Assembly: GCF_002356295.1 (NCBI RefSeq)
Contig: NZ_AP018042.1
Location: forward strand, 3,380,361-3,444,360
Source: Labilibaculum antarcticum
GTDB taxonomy: Bacteria > Bacteroidota > Bacteroidia > Bacteroidales > Marinifilaceae
Length of the DNA stretch: 64,000 nucleotides
Direction: 5' to 3'
Shown: positions 21,711 to 39,621 of the stretch, one piece after another
How positions within the stretch are numbered: position 1 is the first letter of the stretch
Layout: every line of letters starts with the position of its first letter
Position numbers and translations under genes: made by a program
Notes under the pieces: model-generated
Seen by the model: only the letters and a program-made list of their open reading frames with translations
Database searches by the model: none
Told to the model about the DNA's origin: nothing

Positions 21711-23774
21711 ATGAAAAATATATATAGATTATCCGCACTGTTTATCGCAGTTTGTTTCGTGATATCGGCAAGTGCTCAAGTGGATCGAACAAAGGCTCCG
21801 GCAGCGGGTCCTGCTCCAAAAATTCAGATTGGAGACTACGATAGCTTTACTTTAAAAAATGGATTGAAAGTATTAGTGGTAGAGAACCATAAGCTTCCTA
21901 AAGTTGAATTTGCACTTTCTTTATTAATCGACCCAATTGTAGAGGGAGAAAAAGTGGGTTATACTTCATTTGTAGGAGATTTAATGGATAGGGGTACAGC
22001 GAATCGTACAGCTAATCAAATTTCTGAAGAAATTGATTTTATAGGTGCCAAGTTGGGAGCACGATCCGATGGAGTAGAAGCTGGTGGTTTATCAAGATAT
22101 AAGGAGCAAATTCTTGAATTAATGGCCGACGTAACTTTACATCCGACTTTCCCTCAAGATGAATTTGATAAGATTGTAAAACAAACCTTATCCGGTCTTG
22201 AAGCAAATAAGACAGATCCGAAGTCTACTTCAAGAAATGTAAGAAATAAAGTAGTATATGGTGAAAATCATCCTTATGGAGAAGTGTTGACAGAAACTTC
22301 GGTTAACAATGTAACTGTTGAAGATTGTAAGAAATATCATGCGACTTATTTTAAGCCAAATGTTGCTTTAATGGCAATTGTAGGTGATATCACAACTAAA
22401 GAAGCTAAGAAATTAGTGAAAAAATACTTTGGTGAGTGGGAGCAGGGAGTAGTGCCAACTCATAAATATGACATGCCTGCTAAAATAGAAGGAAAGAGAG
22501 TTGTTTTAGCAAATAAGGATGCTGCTCCTCAATCATTAGTGCAAATTATTAACTGGATCGATTTGAAAAAAGGTGATCCTGATGTAATTCCAGCATCTGT
22601 TATGAATTCGATGTTGGGACGTGGATTTTTGGGATTATTGAATAGAAATCTTCGTGAAGACAAAGCATATACTTATGGCGCTTATTCAGGACTTTCGTCA
22701 GATAAGTTAGTGGGGCAGTTTTTTGCAGGTTCGGAAGTCAAAGCTACTGTTACAGATAGTGCATTGATTGAAATCGCTTACGAAATGAATTTTATTCGCA
22801 ATCAGAAGCTAACTCAGGATCACTTGGATATGACCAAAGCAACTATGGCTGGTGATTTTGCAAGATCGTTAGAGGCTCCTTCAACCATTGCTGATTTTGC
22901 CATGGCTATTGAGCGTTACAACTTGCCTGCAGATTATTATGCAACTTATCTTGAAAAACTAGATAAAGTAACATTGGAAGATGTTCAGGCAATGGCGAAG
23001 AAGTATGTTGATCCTAATAATGCTGTTTATTTGGTAGTTGGGGATAAAAAATACATGAGTTGTTTGGCCAAACTAAGTTCAACGAACACAGTAGAAGAGT
23101 ACGATTATAAAGGTGATCTTGTAAAACAAGATCCTAATGCCATACCTAAAGGTTTAACTTGTAAGACGGTAATTGATAGTTATGTAACTGCTGTTGGTGG
23201 TCGTGAGAAATGGTCTGCCGTAAAAGATCTTGCAATTAAAGGTGAAATGAAAATGGGGCCAATGAGTGTGAATGTTGAATCAGCTTTTAAAAATAATGAA
23301 AAGTATAGCCTTAAAATGACCATGAATGGTCAGGTAGTGCAAGCAATTTCGTATAATGGAACTTCAGCTAAGGTTATTGCCATGGGTAAAGAGAAGCAAG
23401 CGGATGAGGCTGAGTTGAGCAAATATAAAATTCAAGCTCAAATGTGTCCTGAGTTAAATATGCAAGAACTTGGTTATGAAATGGAAATTGTTGGTGCTGA
23501 GGTTATTCAGGGTGAGAAAGCTTATAAACTTGAAATTACAGATGCTGATGGAGTGTCGAGATATGACTTCTTTTCAGTTGATTCGGGCCTTAAGCTAAAA
23601 ACAATAATGCAGCAAAATGGAATAAGTATTGTAATGCTTTACAAAGAATACAAAGAAGTGGAAGGTATAAAATATCCTTACTTAACGGTTACCAAAATGG
23701 GACCACAGGAAATGCCTCTAACAATTACCGAATTATTGGTAAACAAAGGTGTGGATGATTCTGTTTTTAATTAG
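21711..23774 (+). CDS. M16 peptidase-like protein, non-catalytic partner with C-terminal lipoprotein-sorting-like domain
   Basis: 687 residues from the ATG at 21711, which places the signal peptide (NIYRLSALFIAVCFVISASAQ) first; upstream in-frame TTG codons are unlikely starts. Two M16 domains span about 35-465. Where the first should read HxxEH it has SFVGDLMDRGTANR, so it cannot bind zinc the usual way. LGRGFLGLLNRNLREDKAYTY keeps the R/Y pair used by partner subunits for substrate. From about residue 480 comes an extra domain (SYVTAVGGREKWSAVKDL and later strands), similar to the LolA-like / outer membrane lipoprotein-sorting fold found fused to such peptidases in Bacteroidota. Follows the catalytic gene. 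Confidence 0.88.
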   Translation: MKNIYRLSALFIAVCFVISASAQVDRTKAPAAGPAPKIQIGDYDSFTLKNGLKVLVVENHKLPKVEFALSLLIDPIVEGEKVGYTSFVGDLMDRGTANRTANQISEEIDFIGAKLGARSDGVEAGGLSRYKEQILELMADVTLHPTFPQDEFDKIVKQTLSGLEANKTDPKSTSRNVRNKVVYGENHPYGEVLTETSVNNVTVEDCKKYHATYFKPNVALMAIVGDITTKEAKKLVKKYFGEWEQGVVPTHKYDMPAKIEGKRVVLANKDAAPQSLVQIINWIDLKKGDPDVIPASVMNSMLGRGFLGLLNRNLREDKAYTYGAYSGLSSDKLVGQFFAGSEVKATVTDSALIEIAYEMNFIRNQKLTQDHLDMTKATMAGDFARSLEAPSTIADFAMAIERYNLPADYYATYLEKLDKVTLEDVQAMAKKYVDPNNAVYLVVGDKKYMSCLAKLSSTNTVEEYDYKGDLVKQDPNAIPKGLTCKTVIDSYVTAVGGREKWSAVKDLAIKGEMKMGPMSVNVESAFKNNEKYSLKMTMNGQVVQAISYNGTSAKVIAMGKEKQADEAELSKYKIQAQMCPELNMQELGYEMEIVGAEVIQGEKAYKLEITDADGVSRYDFFSVDSGLKLKTIMQQNGISIVMLYKEYKEVEGIKYPYLTVTKMGPQEMPLTITELLVNKGVDDSVFN

Positions 23775-23798
23775 AATGAATTAAAGACTTAAATATAG

Positions 23799-23826
23799 AA
23801 AAGGCTGCAATTTGTAGCCTTTTCTT
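23799..23826 (+). terminator. Terminator of the M16 pair
   Basis: AAAAGGCTGCAA pairs with TTGTAGCCTTTT (G-T at one position), 24 bp after the stop. Confidence 0.85.
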
Positions 23827-23885
23827 ATGGAAATTCAAGTATAAACGTTATTCTTTTTGAAAGATAAATATTAATTATAAAACCC

Positions 23886-23915
23886 TTTGTGATTTAAATT
23901 TAATATCTATCTTTG
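23886..23915 (+). promoter_or_regulatory. Promoter of the gene-free RNA unit
   Basis: TTTG at 23886-23889 and TATCTTTG at 23908-23915 are separated by 18 bp, a good match to the Bacteroidota -33 TTTG / -7 TAnnTTTG promoter. Transcription should begin near 23920. Confidence 0.65.
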
Positions 23916-23917
23916 CA

Positions 23918-24056
23918 CTCCGATTCGGGAGTGCAGTGGTTAGGCATAGTGATCGAATCGGAATTTCCTTATGAATATATATGGTTTTAGGGTTAAAACT
24001 TCGTATTGGAAATCATTTTGGGTTAGAGAAAAGGCTGGTGGGGACCAGCCTTTTTT
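23918..24056 (+). ncRNA. Candidate structured small RNA (about 135 nt)
   Basis: No protein is encoded, yet the stretch has its own promoter and a strong terminator (GGCTGGT-GGGG-ACCAGCC then T6 at 24051-24056). Between them lie three structures. GCACTCC/GGAGTGC (23915-23934) competes with CCGATTCG/CGAATCGG (23920-23927 with 23954-23961). A long interrupted hairpin is nested as ATTTCC/GGAAAT (23963-23968, 24008-24013), TATGAA/TTCGTA (23970-23975, 24000-24005) and GTTTTA/TAAAAC (23984-23989, 23994-23999). It resembles no tRNA, tmRNA or SRP RNA. A long rod with internal loops is also the shape of 6S RNAs, but I cannot assign a family. Confidence 0.6.
24029..24056 (+). terminator. Terminator of the candidate small RNA
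   Basis: AAAAGGCTGGT and ACCAGCCTTTTTT pair with a GGGG loop. It ends directly before the stop codon of the convergent nadD gene and may serve both strands. Confidence 0.85.
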
Positions 24057-24059
24057 ATT

Positions 24060-24638
24060 TTATAGTTTCTCGTAAAAGTGCATTTCTTTTAGATAGTTGT
24101 AAGCTTTCTCGGGCATGAAGTAGGGAATGTCTTTTTTCTCTTTTATGGCTTTTCTGATAAAGCTTGAGGAGATTTCTATTAAAGGAGCATTTACAATGTA
24201 AATATTGCCATCCATAGTAATCGATTCACTTTCAAAATTAGGTCGTGGATAGACAAATAAAGCATGATTTTGTAGAATTAATTCATGATTCTTCCACTTT
24301 GAAAAGCTTTTTAGATTATCCGATCCTACGATTAGAGAAAACTGATGAGATGGGTTTTTTTCTTTTAAATAGGTAAGGGTATCAATCGTAAAAGAAGGTT
24401 GGGGCATTCCAAATTCAACATTAGATGCCTTGAAATGGGGATAGCGGTCAATTGCCTGATTTACCAATTGCAGCCGATGATAATCGGCTAAGAGACTGTT
24501 CTTGTTCTTGAAAGGATTGTGTGGACTAACTACAAACCAAATTTGTTCTAAATCGGTGTATTCTGCCATGTAGTTCGCAATAGCGAGATGGCCGATATGA
24601 ATTGGATTAAACGATCCGAAAAATAGTCCTATTCTCAT
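24060..24638 (-). CDS. nadD: Nicotinate-nucleotide adenylyltransferase
   Basis: 192 residues. It adenylates nicotinate mononucleotide in NAD synthesis. The nucleotidyltransferase signature GLFFGSFNPIHIGHL contains the HxGH-type motif, VVSPHNPFK follows, and the C-terminal ISSSFIRKAI motif is intact. Normal length. It is the last gene of a minus-strand group with gmk (16 bp upstream) and yicC, an order often conserved in Bacteroidota. Confidence 0.95.
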   Translation of the reverse strand: MRIGLFFGSFNPIHIGHLAIANYMAEYTDLEQIWFVVSPHNPFKNKNSLLADYHRLQLVNQAIDRYPHFKASNVEFGMPQPSFTIDTLTYLKEKNPSHQFSLIVGSDNLKSFSKWKNHELILQNHALFVYPRPNFESESITMDGNIYIVNAPLIEISSSFIRKAIKEKKDIPYFMPEKAYNYLKEMHFYEKL

Positions 24639-35198: not shown

Positions 35199-38100
35199 AT
35201 GAAAAAACTGACATTTATTGTTTGTGTGTTGATGTTAACTTTTCAAATAGTTAATGCACAAACAAAGCAAATTTCCGGTACTGTAATTAGTGCTGATGAT
35301 GGCATGGGGATGCCAGGCGTTTCTGTTGTGATTATAGGAACCACAACTGGAACGAGTACTGATATTGACGGTAAATATGTCTTAAGTGCTCAATCTTCGG
35401 ATGTCTTGTTGTTTAGTTTCGTGGGTATGGTAGCTCAAGAAATTACCGTTGGTAACCAATCTGTGATTAATGTAACTATGAAATCTGAGATAATTGGAAT
35501 GGACGAAATCATAGTTGTTGGTTATGGAAAGCAAATAAAATCGGAAATGACTGGTGCTATTTCTAAAGTGGATGTAGAAGGATTACAAAAAGTTCCTTCG
35601 CCTTCTTTTGAGACATCTATGCAAGGAAAAACTTCAGGGGTTTTTATTCAACAGAGCACGGGAAAACTTGGAGAGGGAATAAACATTCGAGTTCGAGGAG
35701 CCTCTTCATTAAGTGCCAGTAACCAACCTTTGTATGTGGTTGATGGGGTGGTTGTAACTTCCCAGGATCAAGGAGGAACAGGAAACCAACCAACCAATCC
35801 GATTTCAGATCTGAATTTTGATGATATTGCTTCGATTCAAATACTTAAAGATGCATCTGCGGCTTCAATATATGGCTCGAGAGCATCGAATGGAGTGGTA
35901 ATTATTACAACAAAATCAGGTGGGAAAAATAAGAAGACTGTAATTAATGTTAACTACTCTGTTTCTATAGCCAAAGAGACCAATAGGCTTGATATGCTGA
36001 ATACTCAGGAATATGTAGAGTTACTAGGTGAAGGAATGGATAATTCTGGTTGGGCTTTGTCGGATGGAATGAATGGGGAAGAATCTATTCTTGATTGGGG
36101 AGGGTTTGCCTCGATAGAGGAAACTGCAGATACAGATTGGCAAGATGAGATGTTTAGAACAGCGGTTTCATCAAATTATAATATTAGTGCCTCAGGAGGA
36201 AATGAAAAAACCCGATTCTATTCAGGATTGTCATATTCGGATCAGCAGGGGATTTTAATTGATAATGATTTTAAGCGGATTAGTGCTCGATTAAATTTGG
36301 ATCACCAGATTAGTGATAAAATTGATTTTGGAATAAAATTCAACTTTGTAAGAAGTGTTCTGGATCGTGTCTCTGATGATAATGCATTTTCAACACCGAC
36401 CCAATTGATAGCACAAGCGCCTTATTTTCCAGCTTTTGATGATTCGGGGGAGCCTTTTGCTGATACGTTCTATTTTAATAGTTTATTGGCTTCCAGATAC
36501 AACTACTATGAAACATTAGTGTACAGAACGTTTGTTAATGCATATATAACCTGTGATATTCTACCTGAGTTATCCTTTAAATCTGTATTTGGTGCTGATA
36601 ATCTTATTCAACGGGAAGATCAGTATTGGAGTAGGAGAACTGACGATGGGCAACCTGCAGGTAAATCGTATTTAAGAAATGTAAATATGCTAAATTATTC
36701 ATTTGACAATTATTTTACCTACAGCAAAGATTTTAATGAGAATCATTCCTTAGAAGTTGTTTTAGGTACGTCTATTCAAAAAGCGGAGAGATTTGTTAGT
36801 AGAGTGGGCGGTAAGAGTTTCCCTTCTGATGAGTTCCAGACTATCGCATCAGCGGCTGAAAATGATGATTTTTATAGTGATAAAACAGAGTTCTCTTATC
36901 TCTCCTATTTTTCCAGATTGAATTATAAATTTATGGATAAGTATCTGGCAACATTGAGTTATCGTGTTGATGGTTCAAGTAAGTTTGGAGAAGATAATCG
37001 GTATGGTGGATTTTATGCAGGTTCTCTAGGTTGGATTATTTCCAAGGAGGATTTTTTATTGGATAGTCCCGTTGTTAGTTTCCTAAAAGTTCGTGGGTCA
37101 TATGGTATAACGGGAAATTCTGAAATAGGAAATTTTCCATCCCGAGGATTATTTAGCGGAACACGTTACGCAGGTAATTCGGCTATTGAGCCAACGCAAT
37201 TGGCAAATGCAAAACTACAATGGGAGAAAACAGCTCAAACTGATATCGGAATTGATTTTGGATTATTTAATAATCGAATAAATGGGGAATTTGATTACTA
37301 TTATAAGAAAACTACTGATTTATTATTGGATAGATTATTACCATATACATCAGGTTATTCCAGTATTGCCGAGAATGTTGGAGAATTGGAAAATAAAGGG
37401 GTCGAGATCACTTTAAATACAAATAATTTGATTGGTGATTTTACTTGGAGTACCAGCTTTAATATCTCATTTAATAAAAATGAAGTGACCAAATTGATTG
37501 ATCCTATTCAACGAAATGTGAACAGGGTAATGGTCGGGGAACCAATTGGTGTATTTTATATAAAAAAATACGCAGGAGTAGATCCTGATAATGGAGATGC
37601 GCTTTACTTTATAGAGGACGGAAGTGATGAAACTACAAATGATTATGGTCTTGCTGAAGATATAATTGTTGGAGATCCTAATCCTGACTTTTTTGGAGGT
37701 TTGGATAATACCTTTTCGTATAAAGGTTTTGATGCCAGAATTTTCTTCCAGTTTGTATATGGAAATGATATCTATAATGATGCCGGACGTTTTATGTCTG
37801 CGAACGGCGATTGGGTAGATAATCAGACACGTGATCAGTTGAAGCGTTGGCAACAACCAGGTGATATTACTGATATTCCTCAGGCGAGATTTGGAGATAG
37901 TAATGGAACAAGAACTTCTTCCAGATGGATTTCCGATGGTTCCTATATTCGCCTGAAGGATTTAACCCTTGGATACACTTTGCCAAAAAAATTGGCTCAA
38001 AAAATAAATGTTAACAAAGTGAGAATTTACTTCACTGGACAGAACTTATGGACATATACTGATTTTAAAGGTTGGGATCCTGAAGTAAGTGCTCCAGGAA

Positions 38101-38201
38101 GTAATCGTACTCAGCTGTCAACTAATATTCAGCAAGGTGTTGATTATTATTCTACTCCACAGGCGAAAACGTATATGTTTGGAGTTAATTTAAGCTTCTA
38201 A
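35199..38201 (+). CDS. SusC/RagA-family TonB-dependent outer-membrane transporter
   Basis: 1000 residues. Signal peptide (LTFIVCVLMLTFQIVNAQ), then a carboxypeptidase-like regulatory domain (about 25-95, ISGTVISADDGMGMPGVSV), then the TonB box region DEIIVVGYG, a plug domain with VRGASSLSASNQPLYVVDGV and SAASIYGSRASNGVVIITTK, and a large barrel ending in aromatic YMFGVNLSF. It imports oligomers (glycans or peptides) together with the SusD lipoprotein encoded 19 bp downstream. No glycoside hydrolase or protease is in the cluster, so the substrate is open. The pair is bracketed by direct repeats. Confidence 0.96.
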   Translation: MKKLTFIVCVLMLTFQIVNAQTKQISGTVISADDGMGMPGVSVVIIGTTTGTSTDIDGKYVLSAQSSDVLLFSFVGMVAQEITVGNQSVINVTMKSEIIGMDEIIVVGYGKQIKSEMTGAISKVDVEGLQKVPSPSFETSMQGKTSGVFIQQSTGKLGEGINIRVRGASSLSASNQPLYVVDGVVVTSQDQGGTGNQPTNPISDLNFDDIASIQILKDASAASIYGSRASNGVVIITTKSGGKNKKTVINVNYSVSIAKETNRLDMLNTQEYVELLGEGMDNSGWALSDGMNGEESILDWGGFASIEETADTDWQDEMFRTAVSSNYNISASGGNEKTRFYSGLSYSDQQGILIDNDFKRISARLNLDHQISDKIDFGIKFNFVRSVLDRVSDDNAFSTPTQLIAQAPYFPAFDDSGEPFADTFYFNSLLASRYNYYETLVYRTFVNAYITCDILPELSFKSVFGADNLIQREDQYWSRRTDDGQPAGKSYLRNVNMLNYSFDNYFTYSKDFNENHSLEVVLGTSIQKAERFVSRVGGKSFPSDEFQTIASAAENDDFYSDKTEFSYLSYFSRLNYKFMDKYLATLSYRVDGSSKFGEDNRYGGFYAGSLGWIISKEDFLLDSPVVSFLKVRGSYGITGNSEIGNFPSRGLFSGTRYAGNSAIEPTQLANAKLQWEKTAQTDIGIDFGLFNNRINGEFDYYYKKTTDLLLDRLLPYTSGYSSIAENVGELENKGVEITLNTNNLIGDFTWSTSFNISFNKNEVTKLIDPIQRNVNRVMVGEPIGVFYIKKYAGVDPDNGDALYFIEDGSDETTNDYGLAEDIIVGDPNPDFFGGLDNTFSYKGFDARIFFQFVYGNDIYNDAGRFMSANGDWVDNQTRDQLKRWQQPGDITDIPQARFGDSNGTRTSSRWISDGSYIRLKDLTLGYTLPKKLAQKINVNKVRIYFTGQNLWTYTDFKGWDPEVSAPGSNRTQLSTNIQQGVDYYSTPQAKTYMFGVNLSF

Positions 38202-38220
38202 CCCAAAAAATATAAAGCAT

Positions 38221-39621
38221 ATGAAATATATAAAATCATTACTAATCGTTTTATCCATCCTGATTTTTACTGGATGCGATAGTATTTTGGACCTAGATCC
38301 ACAACAATCGATTGATACGAATCTGGTTTTGACAACTGCTGAGAACATTGAACTTACTCTTGTGGGAACATATCCAATTGTGAGAGATGCATATGGTCAA
38401 AATATGTTCCATTTTAGTGAATTGTTAGCCGATAATGGGGAGTTTGAATTTAGAGGAACATTTTCTCAACCTCGCGATTTAATTAATAAGGATTTGGTGG
38501 ATAATTTCTCTTGGGGAAATGATGCATGGAATCTGGCATATGATGCTATAAATAGAACTAATATTGTTTTGGATTATAAAGATGTACTTGCTGAAAGTGA
38601 TCGGGATGAAATAAGTGGGCAGGCAATGTTCTTACGAGGATTGATGTATTTTGACATGGTTCGGTTCTACGCGAAACCTTATGTTGCCGGACAAGCAAAT
38701 AATCAACCAGGAGTACCATTAATGTTGCATTCTAATTTTGACGTCAGTAAAGTGGAATATCCAGAAAGAGCAACTGTTGATGCAGTATACGATCAAGCCA
38801 TATCAGACCTTAGTATGGCTAAGACTTTGTTGGGAGAAGATAGTTTTTATGCTAACAGGTTTGCTGCAGCAGCAATTTTATCAAGAATTTATTTACAGAA
38901 AGGAATGTATGAAGAGGCTGCAATCGAAGCCAATTATGTAATTACTGAAGGTGGTTTCGATTTGACGGAAGTCCCTTTTGATGCCTACAATAATGAAACT
39001 AATGGTTTTGAGGATGTCTTTACTTTTCAGCAAAACAATGATGATAATATTGGAGAAAGTAATGCCGGGATGGCGACTTTTTATGCTAGTACAGATGCTA
39101 CCGGAAGATCCGATTTCCAAATTACGAATGTAGAAACTGATAAATATGAAGCAGGTGATTTAAGAGGAGAGATTCAAACCGATTTAGATGAAGATTCTAA
39201 AATCAATGATGTGAAAAGTATTTATTATTTGGGATTTGGCTCAAATTCTACTGGTGGTAATTATTGCGCTAAGTGGTTAGATTTTAAAACTAATTTGACA
39301 TTTATTCGTTTAGCAGAAATGTACTTGACAAGAGCCGAAGGTAACTTTGAGGCAGGAACTACTTTAGGAGCAACTCCATTGGATGACATTAATAAAATTC
39401 GTTATAGAGCAGGATTAGTTCTGATAGGTTCTGTTACTCAGAGCATAATTAGAAATGAAAGAAAATTAGAGTTAGCATTTGAAGGATTTAGACTTCACGA
39501 TATTAAGCGTTGGAAGGAATCTGTAGGAACGCTAGCCTATGATGATCCATCTTTGGTTATGCCTATCCCTAAAAGGGAAATTGATGTTAATGATAAATTG
39601 ACTCAGAACGAAGGTTACTAA
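38221..39621 (+). CDS. SusD/RagB-family nutrient-binding outer-membrane lipoprotein
   Basis: 466 residues. Lipobox at the end of SLLIVLSILIFTGC, giving a surface lipoprotein. The N-terminal SusD-like region has LDLDPQQSIDTN and GQAMFLRGLMYFDMVRFYAKPY; the C-terminal RagB/SusD domain has FIRLAEMYLTRAEGNF and NERKLELAFEGFRLHDIKRW, both strong family signatures. It caps the SusC barrel and captures substrate. The last 22 codons are repeated upstream of susC. Confidence 0.95.
   Translation: MKYIKSLLIVLSILIFTGCDSILDLDPQQSIDTNLVLTTAENIELTLVGTYPIVRDAYGQNMFHFSELLADNGEFEFRGTFSQPRDLINKDLVDNFSWGNDAWNLAYDAINRTNIVLDYKDVLAESDRDEISGQAMFLRGLMYFDMVRFYAKPYVAGQANNQPGVPLMLHSNFDVSKVEYPERATVDAVYDQAISDLSMAKTLLGEDSFYANRFAAAAILSRIYLQKGMYEEAAIEANYVITEGGFDLTEVPFDAYNNETNGFEDVFTFQQNNDDNIGESNAGMATFYASTDATGRSDFQITNVETDKYEAGDLRGEIQTDLDEDSKINDVKSIYYLGFGSNSTGGNYCAKWLDFKTNLTFIRLAEMYLTRAEGNFEAGTTLGATPLDDINKIRYRAGLVLIGSVTQSIIRNERKLELAFEGFRLHDIKRWKESVGTLAYDDPSLVMPIPKREIDVNDKLTQNEGY

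Follow-up and report, generated by a model that had tools for sequence, protein, structure and literature searches.

A structured small RNA of Marinifilaceae with a thrice-repeated GGUUA-type motif and a candidate role in a FopS-like network

What does the transcription unit between an M16-family gene and a convergent cytidylyltransferase-like gene (Pfam names) encode in Labilibaculum antarcticum? The unit lies on the strand of the M16-family gene at 23886–24056 of the window, i.e., the whole 64,000-nt stretch of DNA analyzed here. An initial annotation made from the sequence had described a Bacteroidota promoter, an ORF-free stretch, and a strong terminator, and all three are present. The −33 element TTTG of a primary promoter (23886–23889, plus strand) and the −7 element TATCTTTG (23908–23915, plus strand; form TAnnTTTG) agree with the promoter consensus described in PMC7366714, which has TAnnTTTG at −7 and TTTG at −33, and both were found in 17/17 aligned homologues. 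Judged from the position of the promoter, the 5′ end probably lies near 23919–23922, and the predicted small RNA is ~138 nt long (23919–24056, plus strand). Its intrinsic terminator, a GGGG loop on a GGT..ACC stem (24027–24056, plus strand), was found by a terminator scan and in the alignment; the scan of 23500–24500 returned one terminator, with 0.6 expected in shuffled sequences. The fold of 23918–24056 reaches −46.4 kcal/mol compared to −31.3 ± 3.4 kcal/mol in shuffles (z −4.45; none of 200 shuffles as low). No ORF is common to all 17 distinct homologous sequences when frames of at least eight codons are compared. A coding gene was considered and rejected: each of the 17 sequences contains some frame of at least eight codons, none of them common to all, and a GTG frame of at least 12 codons in Labilibaculum and Marinifilum is interrupted by TAA in Ancylomarina. 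With promoter, terminator, and homologues in 23 of 56 family genomes, we are highly confident that the locus is a real RNA gene.

The small RNA is confined to part of one family. A sequence search of 59 genomes, L. antarcticum included, matched it at E < 1e-20 in 17, and matches above that value were taken as chance or promoter-only. The covariance model R1, built from the 19 sequences of alignment A2, recovered it at the same threshold in 23 of 56 family genomes; a 24th match (E 0.096) was taken as chance. The carriers are Labilibaculum, Marinifilum, Ancylomarina, and one Marinifilaceae MAG, and a pattern scan of species genomes returned 19 records, each labelled Labilibaculum, Marinifilum, Ancylomarina, or Marinifilaceae. 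Across 295 genomes of the order, R1 had an accepted match in L. antarcticum only; two weak matches outside the family (E 0.001 and 0.007) were rejected, their score coming mainly from the terminator hairpin. Alignment A2 comprises 19 sequences (17 distinct) from 36 matching loci, with most identical cores left out; the promoter boxes, core, and terminator are kept in 17/17 aligned homologues and the flanks have diverged. The cytidylyltransferase-like gene, named nadD in the initial annotation and nadD-like here, lies downstream in the L. antarcticum window and in the two Marinifilum loci that were read (L043 and L049), and an aquaporin-type gene takes its place in all five Ancylomarina-type loci read (L015, L034, L035, L041, and L047). 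In the MAG McD1.32, both flanks differ from those of the other genomes. The small RNA gene is thus independent of its downstream neighbor, since the identity of the neighbor changes while the RNA stays. Loss of the stems in relatives that keep nadD, named beforehand as telling against the RNA, was looked for, and the RNA stands. Its own promoter and terminator, conservation, neighbor independence, and lack of a conserved ORF are the marks of a trans-acting intergenic small RNA; together with the covariation described below and the persistence across the change from a nadD-like to an aquaporin-type neighbor, they favor the trans-acting small RNA that had been proposed. The McD1.32 contig (L033) carries long opposite-strand ORFs upstream of the RNA, rich in Asn/Lys and seemingly unlike the M16 genes found elsewhere, and is possibly chimeric.

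The 5′ domain and the terminator covary. On the unfitted alignment A2, helices P1 and P2 and the terminator contain seven pairs in which both sides have changed, and their joint covariation score of 0.165 was reached by none of 500 alignment shuffles (0.094 ± 0.009), which disregard the relatedness of the sequences. Of the five measures used, four place them above every one of the 500 shuffles, and slid versions score far lower; the fifth measure, "further pair types", was not above the shuffles (394/500 on A2 and 248/500 on A3). The compensatory changes for which a check had been proposed were therefore found in P1, P2, and the terminator on A2. P1 joins CCGATTCG (23920–23927) with CGAATCGG (23954–23961) in fold and alignment (23920–23961, plus strand), with 85.9% of cells paired and both-side changes in one of eight pairs; its outermost pair is broken in 9/17 distinct rows, and end pairs are gone in several species with the core CGAUUC/GAAUCG kept. 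P2, GTGC (23931–23934) with GCAT (23944–23947), spans 23931–23947 of the plus strand, has 97.1% of cells paired and both-side changes in three of four pairs, and is the best supported part within the 5′ domain, with a probability of at least 0.5 in only 4–5 of 17 single-sequence folds. The terminator stem is paired in 100% of cells and shows both-side changes in 3 of 11 pairs.

This RNA carries three copies of a GGUUA-type motif, one each in the P2 loop, the P3 top, and the 3′ linker. The P2 loop AGTGGTTAG is the first copy. P3, a rod with an apical hairpin (23963–24013, plus strand), carries the second copy TTTAGGGTTAAA at its top, with GGGT at 23990–23993 unpaired. The rod described in the initial annotation is present: its outer stem recurs in independent single folds (mean pair probability of P3 at least 0.39 in 16/17 sequences), and the apical hairpin reaches 0.5 in only 5/17. 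P3 is also favored on alignment A3, which was fitted to the structure and is therefore biased towards the model. The third copy lies in the linker ATTTTGGGTTAGA (24015–24027, plus strand), where TTTTGGGTTAG is invariant in A2 and 12 of 13 bases of the L. antarcticum sequence are unpaired at a probability of 0.92–0.97. With the 5′ end set at 23920, the copies are mostly unpaired in 14/17 (linker), 14/17 (P3), and 16/17 (P2) sequences.

The 3′ end of the small RNA recurs in a multicopy family of the same genomes. The weaker R1 matches there are mostly short, terminator-ended units, often in tandem, and UUUUUCAUgGUAUUAGAUUUAAGGUUAAuAAA, the Rfam FopS consensus, can be aligned with their core UUUUUCAUAGAUUAGAUUUAGGUUAGUAA; on the FopS model (RF04319), these FopS-like units score 23–34 bits, and the scores in L. 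antarcticum are 23–30 bits, against a threshold of 56. L. antarcticum has 13 of them by regular expression over fetched loci, or 14 by model R2 over the whole genome. Six stand in tandem at 4.00 Mb, ~200–216 nt apart (L082, G000:C1 ~4001465–4002650, minus strand), most of them preceded by a TATGTTTG-like box when read by eye; five form a looser cluster at 1.99 Mb (L107, G000:C1 ~1986350–1989330, plus strand), and single units lie at 3.02 and 2.05 Mb. Tandem FopS-like units were also seen in other Labilibaculum-, Marinifilum-, and Ancylomarina-type genomes. The module common to the small RNA and the units is GGUUAGA-GAAAAG followed by a terminator with a GGGG loop, and the best match of the reverse model R2 in the window is the 3′ end of the small RNA (E 0.033). 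It may also be that this common end was acquired as a terminator module. FopS-like matches at E < 1e-5 occur in 23/23 genomes with the small RNA; among the 33 genomes without it, G005 (63% complete) alone has such a match, and weak R2 matches, one or two per genome (E 1.6e-4 to 0.008), turn up in 24 of the remaining 32. The comparison favors the genomes with the small RNA, as R2 was built from their units.

The small RNA resembles FopS without being FopS by sequence. In the account given in PMC11697453, Bacteroides thetaiotaomicron has 14 FopS RNAs; they associate with RbpB, and their repression of susC translation takes place at the start codon. They consist of a single-stranded 5′ stretch and a terminator, occur in 12–15 copies per genome, and are highly conserved within Bacteroidaceae. 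Our RNA has in common with FopS (RF04319) a primary-type promoter, a short length, a GGUUA-type motif, an intrinsic terminator, and a predicted complementarity to susC starts. In contrast to FopS, it is single copy and has a P1/P2 and P3 body, and where FopS has an unstructured 5′ stretch with the seed UUUUUCAU..AUUAGAUUUAAGGUUAA, it has the GGUUA-type core three times in a structured body. An assignment to FopS was rejected, as the UUUUUCAU part is missing and the RNA scores 15.9 bits on the FopS model (24015–24062), under the 56-bit gathering threshold. By description (PMC7366714), GibS of Bacteroides is alike in being a 145-nt intergenic RNA with two seed regions against the translation starts of metabolic genes, and it differs in that it has little structure, 5′ seeds, and a promoter of the PM2 type.

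The best reading of these features is that of a trans-acting small RNA of a new family, with a structured body and several seeds, that would act in a FopS-like network. As a single-copy RNA of part of the Marinifilaceae, it would share this network with the FopS-like RNAs that its genomes encode and present the three copies of the motif. These copies would pair with UAACC(C) just upstream of the start codons of susC/susD, hup, and, in some relatives, an MFS transporter, and, like FopS on the susC mRNA of Bacteroides, the paired RNA would keep translation from starting. The motif may also be a binding site for an RRM protein of the RbpB kind, which would then modulate the pairing. That the RNA pairs with UAACC-type start regions within such a network is, on balance, probable.

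The leaders of susC genes are a candidate target set, for the FopS-like units above all. YTAACC occurs in 8/30 susC leaders compared to 2/259 sampled gene starts (Fisher p 2e-7) and TAACCC in 0/30; the linker therefore reaches susC leaders only via YTAACC with G-U pairs or mismatches. TAACCC and CTAACC were absent from 201 sampled leaders of L. antarcticum (−45 to −4) and were present in 1 and 0 of 259 sampled gene starts; by these counts, neither is a common feature of leaders in this genome. TAACC is mildly enriched in 129 leaders of G079, a genome without the small RNA (10 compared to 2.9 expected). Duplexes of a FopS-like unit have a mean of −20.0 kcal/mol on susC leaders versus −13.4 kcal/mol on sampled starts, and no shuffled unit of 60 gave as large a difference. 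For the linker, the means are −9.2 and −8.0 kcal/mol, a difference of modest size that was likewise reached by none of 60 shuffled linkers, and for the P3 and P2 loop seeds it was reached by 4/60 and 2/60 shuffles. These tests used 30 of the 32 susC genes above the family cut-off in the L. antarcticum genome, with the start taken as the 5′-most ATG, which is wrong for some. The best single sites are the susC gene L129 at −18.0 kcal/mol and a susC/susD junction in the window at −17.6 kcal/mol. The latter is a possible target, CTAACCCAAAAA at 38198–38223 (plus strand), where the susC stop meets the susD start (ATG at 38221; SusD by Pfam); its duplex with the linker is the lowest of 260, a rank that is not independent, since the site was chosen by pattern search. 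The window holds this susC/susD pair at ~35268–38198 and from 38221 on. The susC start region in the window forms a duplex of −31.8 kcal/mol with a FopS-like unit, the second best of the 30 susC leaders.

Beyond susC, exact complements of the linker and the P3 loop were searched in nine genomes. The linker complement gave 18 matches, nine of which are its own locus, and four of the other nine sit 7–11 nt before an ORF start. The P3 complement gave 32 matches; among the 30 examined, eight are the own locus and nine of the other 22 sit 9–13 nt before a gene start, namely six hup, two MFS, and one other. A hup leader with TTTTAACCCTAAAA, complementary to the P3 top, is found in 16 Labilibaculum- and Marinifilum-type genomes, and one with TTAACCCAAAA, complementary to the linker, in five Ancylomarina-type genomes and G028. 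Of the 13 close orthologues listed for the MFS transporter, two have no readable start; of the remaining 11, 10 have TAACCC in the leader, and they represent three genera. L. antarcticum has no close orthologue, its only one being at 56%. In genomes without the small RNA, hup keeps TAACCC in seven of the eight listed, and TTTAACCC precedes the start of three MFS homologues of ~55% identity (G068, G023, and G067). Genome-wide, reversed control patterns were as frequent or more so, with 16 matches compared to 18 for the true linker pattern and 52 compared to 32 for P3; with ATGA added, the counts were 49 and 82, part of the 82 lying in small-RNA loci. These counts and the sites in relatives without the small RNA tell against specificity, so that hup, susC/susD, and, in relatives, the MFS transporter stand as candidate targets. 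TAACC leaders may predate the small RNA, with FopS-like RNAs or some other cause preserving them.

Three mostly unpaired copies of one motif would also suit an RNA that binds a protein instead of messengers. Under titration, the GGUUA repeats would sequester a putative RRM protein of the RbpB kind, as CsrB does CsrA, and shift FopS-like RNAs to or from their targets. RNAs of the CsrB/RsmZ type titrate a protein through a GGA motif repeated in loops and single-stranded stretches; our RNA likewise repeats a short motif in such places, and it differs in that the motif is GGUUA, not GGA, with three copies. To our knowledge, CsrA is not known in this phylum. The presence of a single-copy RNA beside a multicopy family is consistent with titration. 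It also fits that RbpB of B. thetaiotaomicron, as described in PMC11697453, has a preference for single-stranded regions, and that the 41-nt sequence ranking first among its CLIP motifs is present in the 14 FopS RNAs. However, three motifs are few for a sponge, and the linker is also complementary to start regions, so that we regard titration as unlikely. A wider version would put the RNA at the center of a FopS-type network beyond the Bacteroidaceae, as the Bacteroidota equivalent of CsrB: displaying three times a motif that is both seed and RRM-protein site, it would titrate the RRM protein and so set the strength with which the 13–14 FopS-like RNAs silence sus operons, and the choice of the 5′ start may open or cover the linker motif. 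This version seems to us a shade more doubtful again.

Less probable still is a switch within the trans-acting RNA. The initial annotation had pointed to two mutually exclusive hairpins, and their partners do stand where they were placed: CCGATTCG and CGAATCGG, which form P1, and GCACTCC (23915–23921) with GGAGTGC (23928–23934). Pairing of CACTCC with GGAGTG excludes the P1/P2 fold and releases the 3′ half of P1, which can then mask the linker motif; the start site, a ligand, or a partner RNA would then decide whether the linker seed is open, and the two folds would differ, on the structural model, in seed exposure. In silico, the competing hairpin is dominant in 11/17 sequences when the 5′ end is set at 23916 and in 0/17 when it is set at 23918 or later. 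The GGGUUAG linker motif is mostly unpaired in 7/17 sequences with the former end and in 14/17 with an end at 23920, although the mean unpaired values differ modestly (0.54 and 0.68, respectively). The competing hairpin has one pair with both-side changes in two sequences, but its covariation score was matched by 89/500 shuffles, and 6/17 sequences cannot form one of its pairs, compared to P2 with 97.1% of cells paired. Both hairpins are thus in the sequence, and covariation beyond shuffles is confined to P1/P2. We do not credit the switch because the promoter implies a start near 23919–23922.

The RNA is very unlikely to be a 3′ UTR or leader element of a neighboring gene, be it the M16 gene upstream or the downstream gene. 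In favor of this reading, the distance from the end of the M16 ORF to the promoter is 112 nt. Against it, the RNA's own promoter boxes are present in 17/17 homologues, and a hairpin followed by T at ~23800–23826, read by eye and absent from the terminator scan list, separates the M16 ORF from the promoter. The downstream genes are convergent and vary between genomes, and McD1.32 has a different upstream stretch as well.

A Bacteroidota-specific relative of 6S RNA, brought to mind by the size and the rod with internal loops, can hardly be correct, since the RNA matches no 6S-type Rfam model and is restricted to part of one family. The initial annotation could not place the RNA in a known family, and in the Rfam search that it had suggested, no family reached its threshold over the 64,000-nt window, 6S-Flavo and Bacteroidales-1 included. 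Compared with 6S-Flavo (RF01685), the RNA is alike in size and in its rod-like element and unlike in having no match to the model. Elsewhere in the genome, the 6S-Flavo model finds two copies ~0.7 kb apart (L031/L032, G000:C1:384580–384703 and 383844–383967, minus strand) at 50.5 and 49.5 bits, under the family cut-off of 85. These two copies are likely the genome's own 6S RNA, as far as the model match indicates, and the relationship to 6S proposed at first was abandoned.

Our literature search found nothing on such small RNAs in Labilibaculum, Marinifilum, or their family. New here are the thrice-repeated GGUUA-type motif and the 3′ end common to 13–14 FopS-like RNAs, 11 of them clustered. 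In Marinifilaceae, clusters of FopS-like RNAs are now seen together with a single-copy, structured RNA as their companion, with predicted pairing to susC starts; if the pairing is true, small-RNA control of glycan import would be a wider trait of Bacteroidales. The small RNA also offers a defined second RNA for testing how such seeds and RRM proteins cooperate. A separate FopS-like unit with UUUUAGGGUUAG was observed at G000:C1 ~3020180–3020245 on the minus strand (L109). Its complement CTAACCCTAAAATTTAACTATGA was matched in six other genomes of ten (G003, G004, G014, G016, G028, and G071), and from these matches, the unit looks like a second conserved member.
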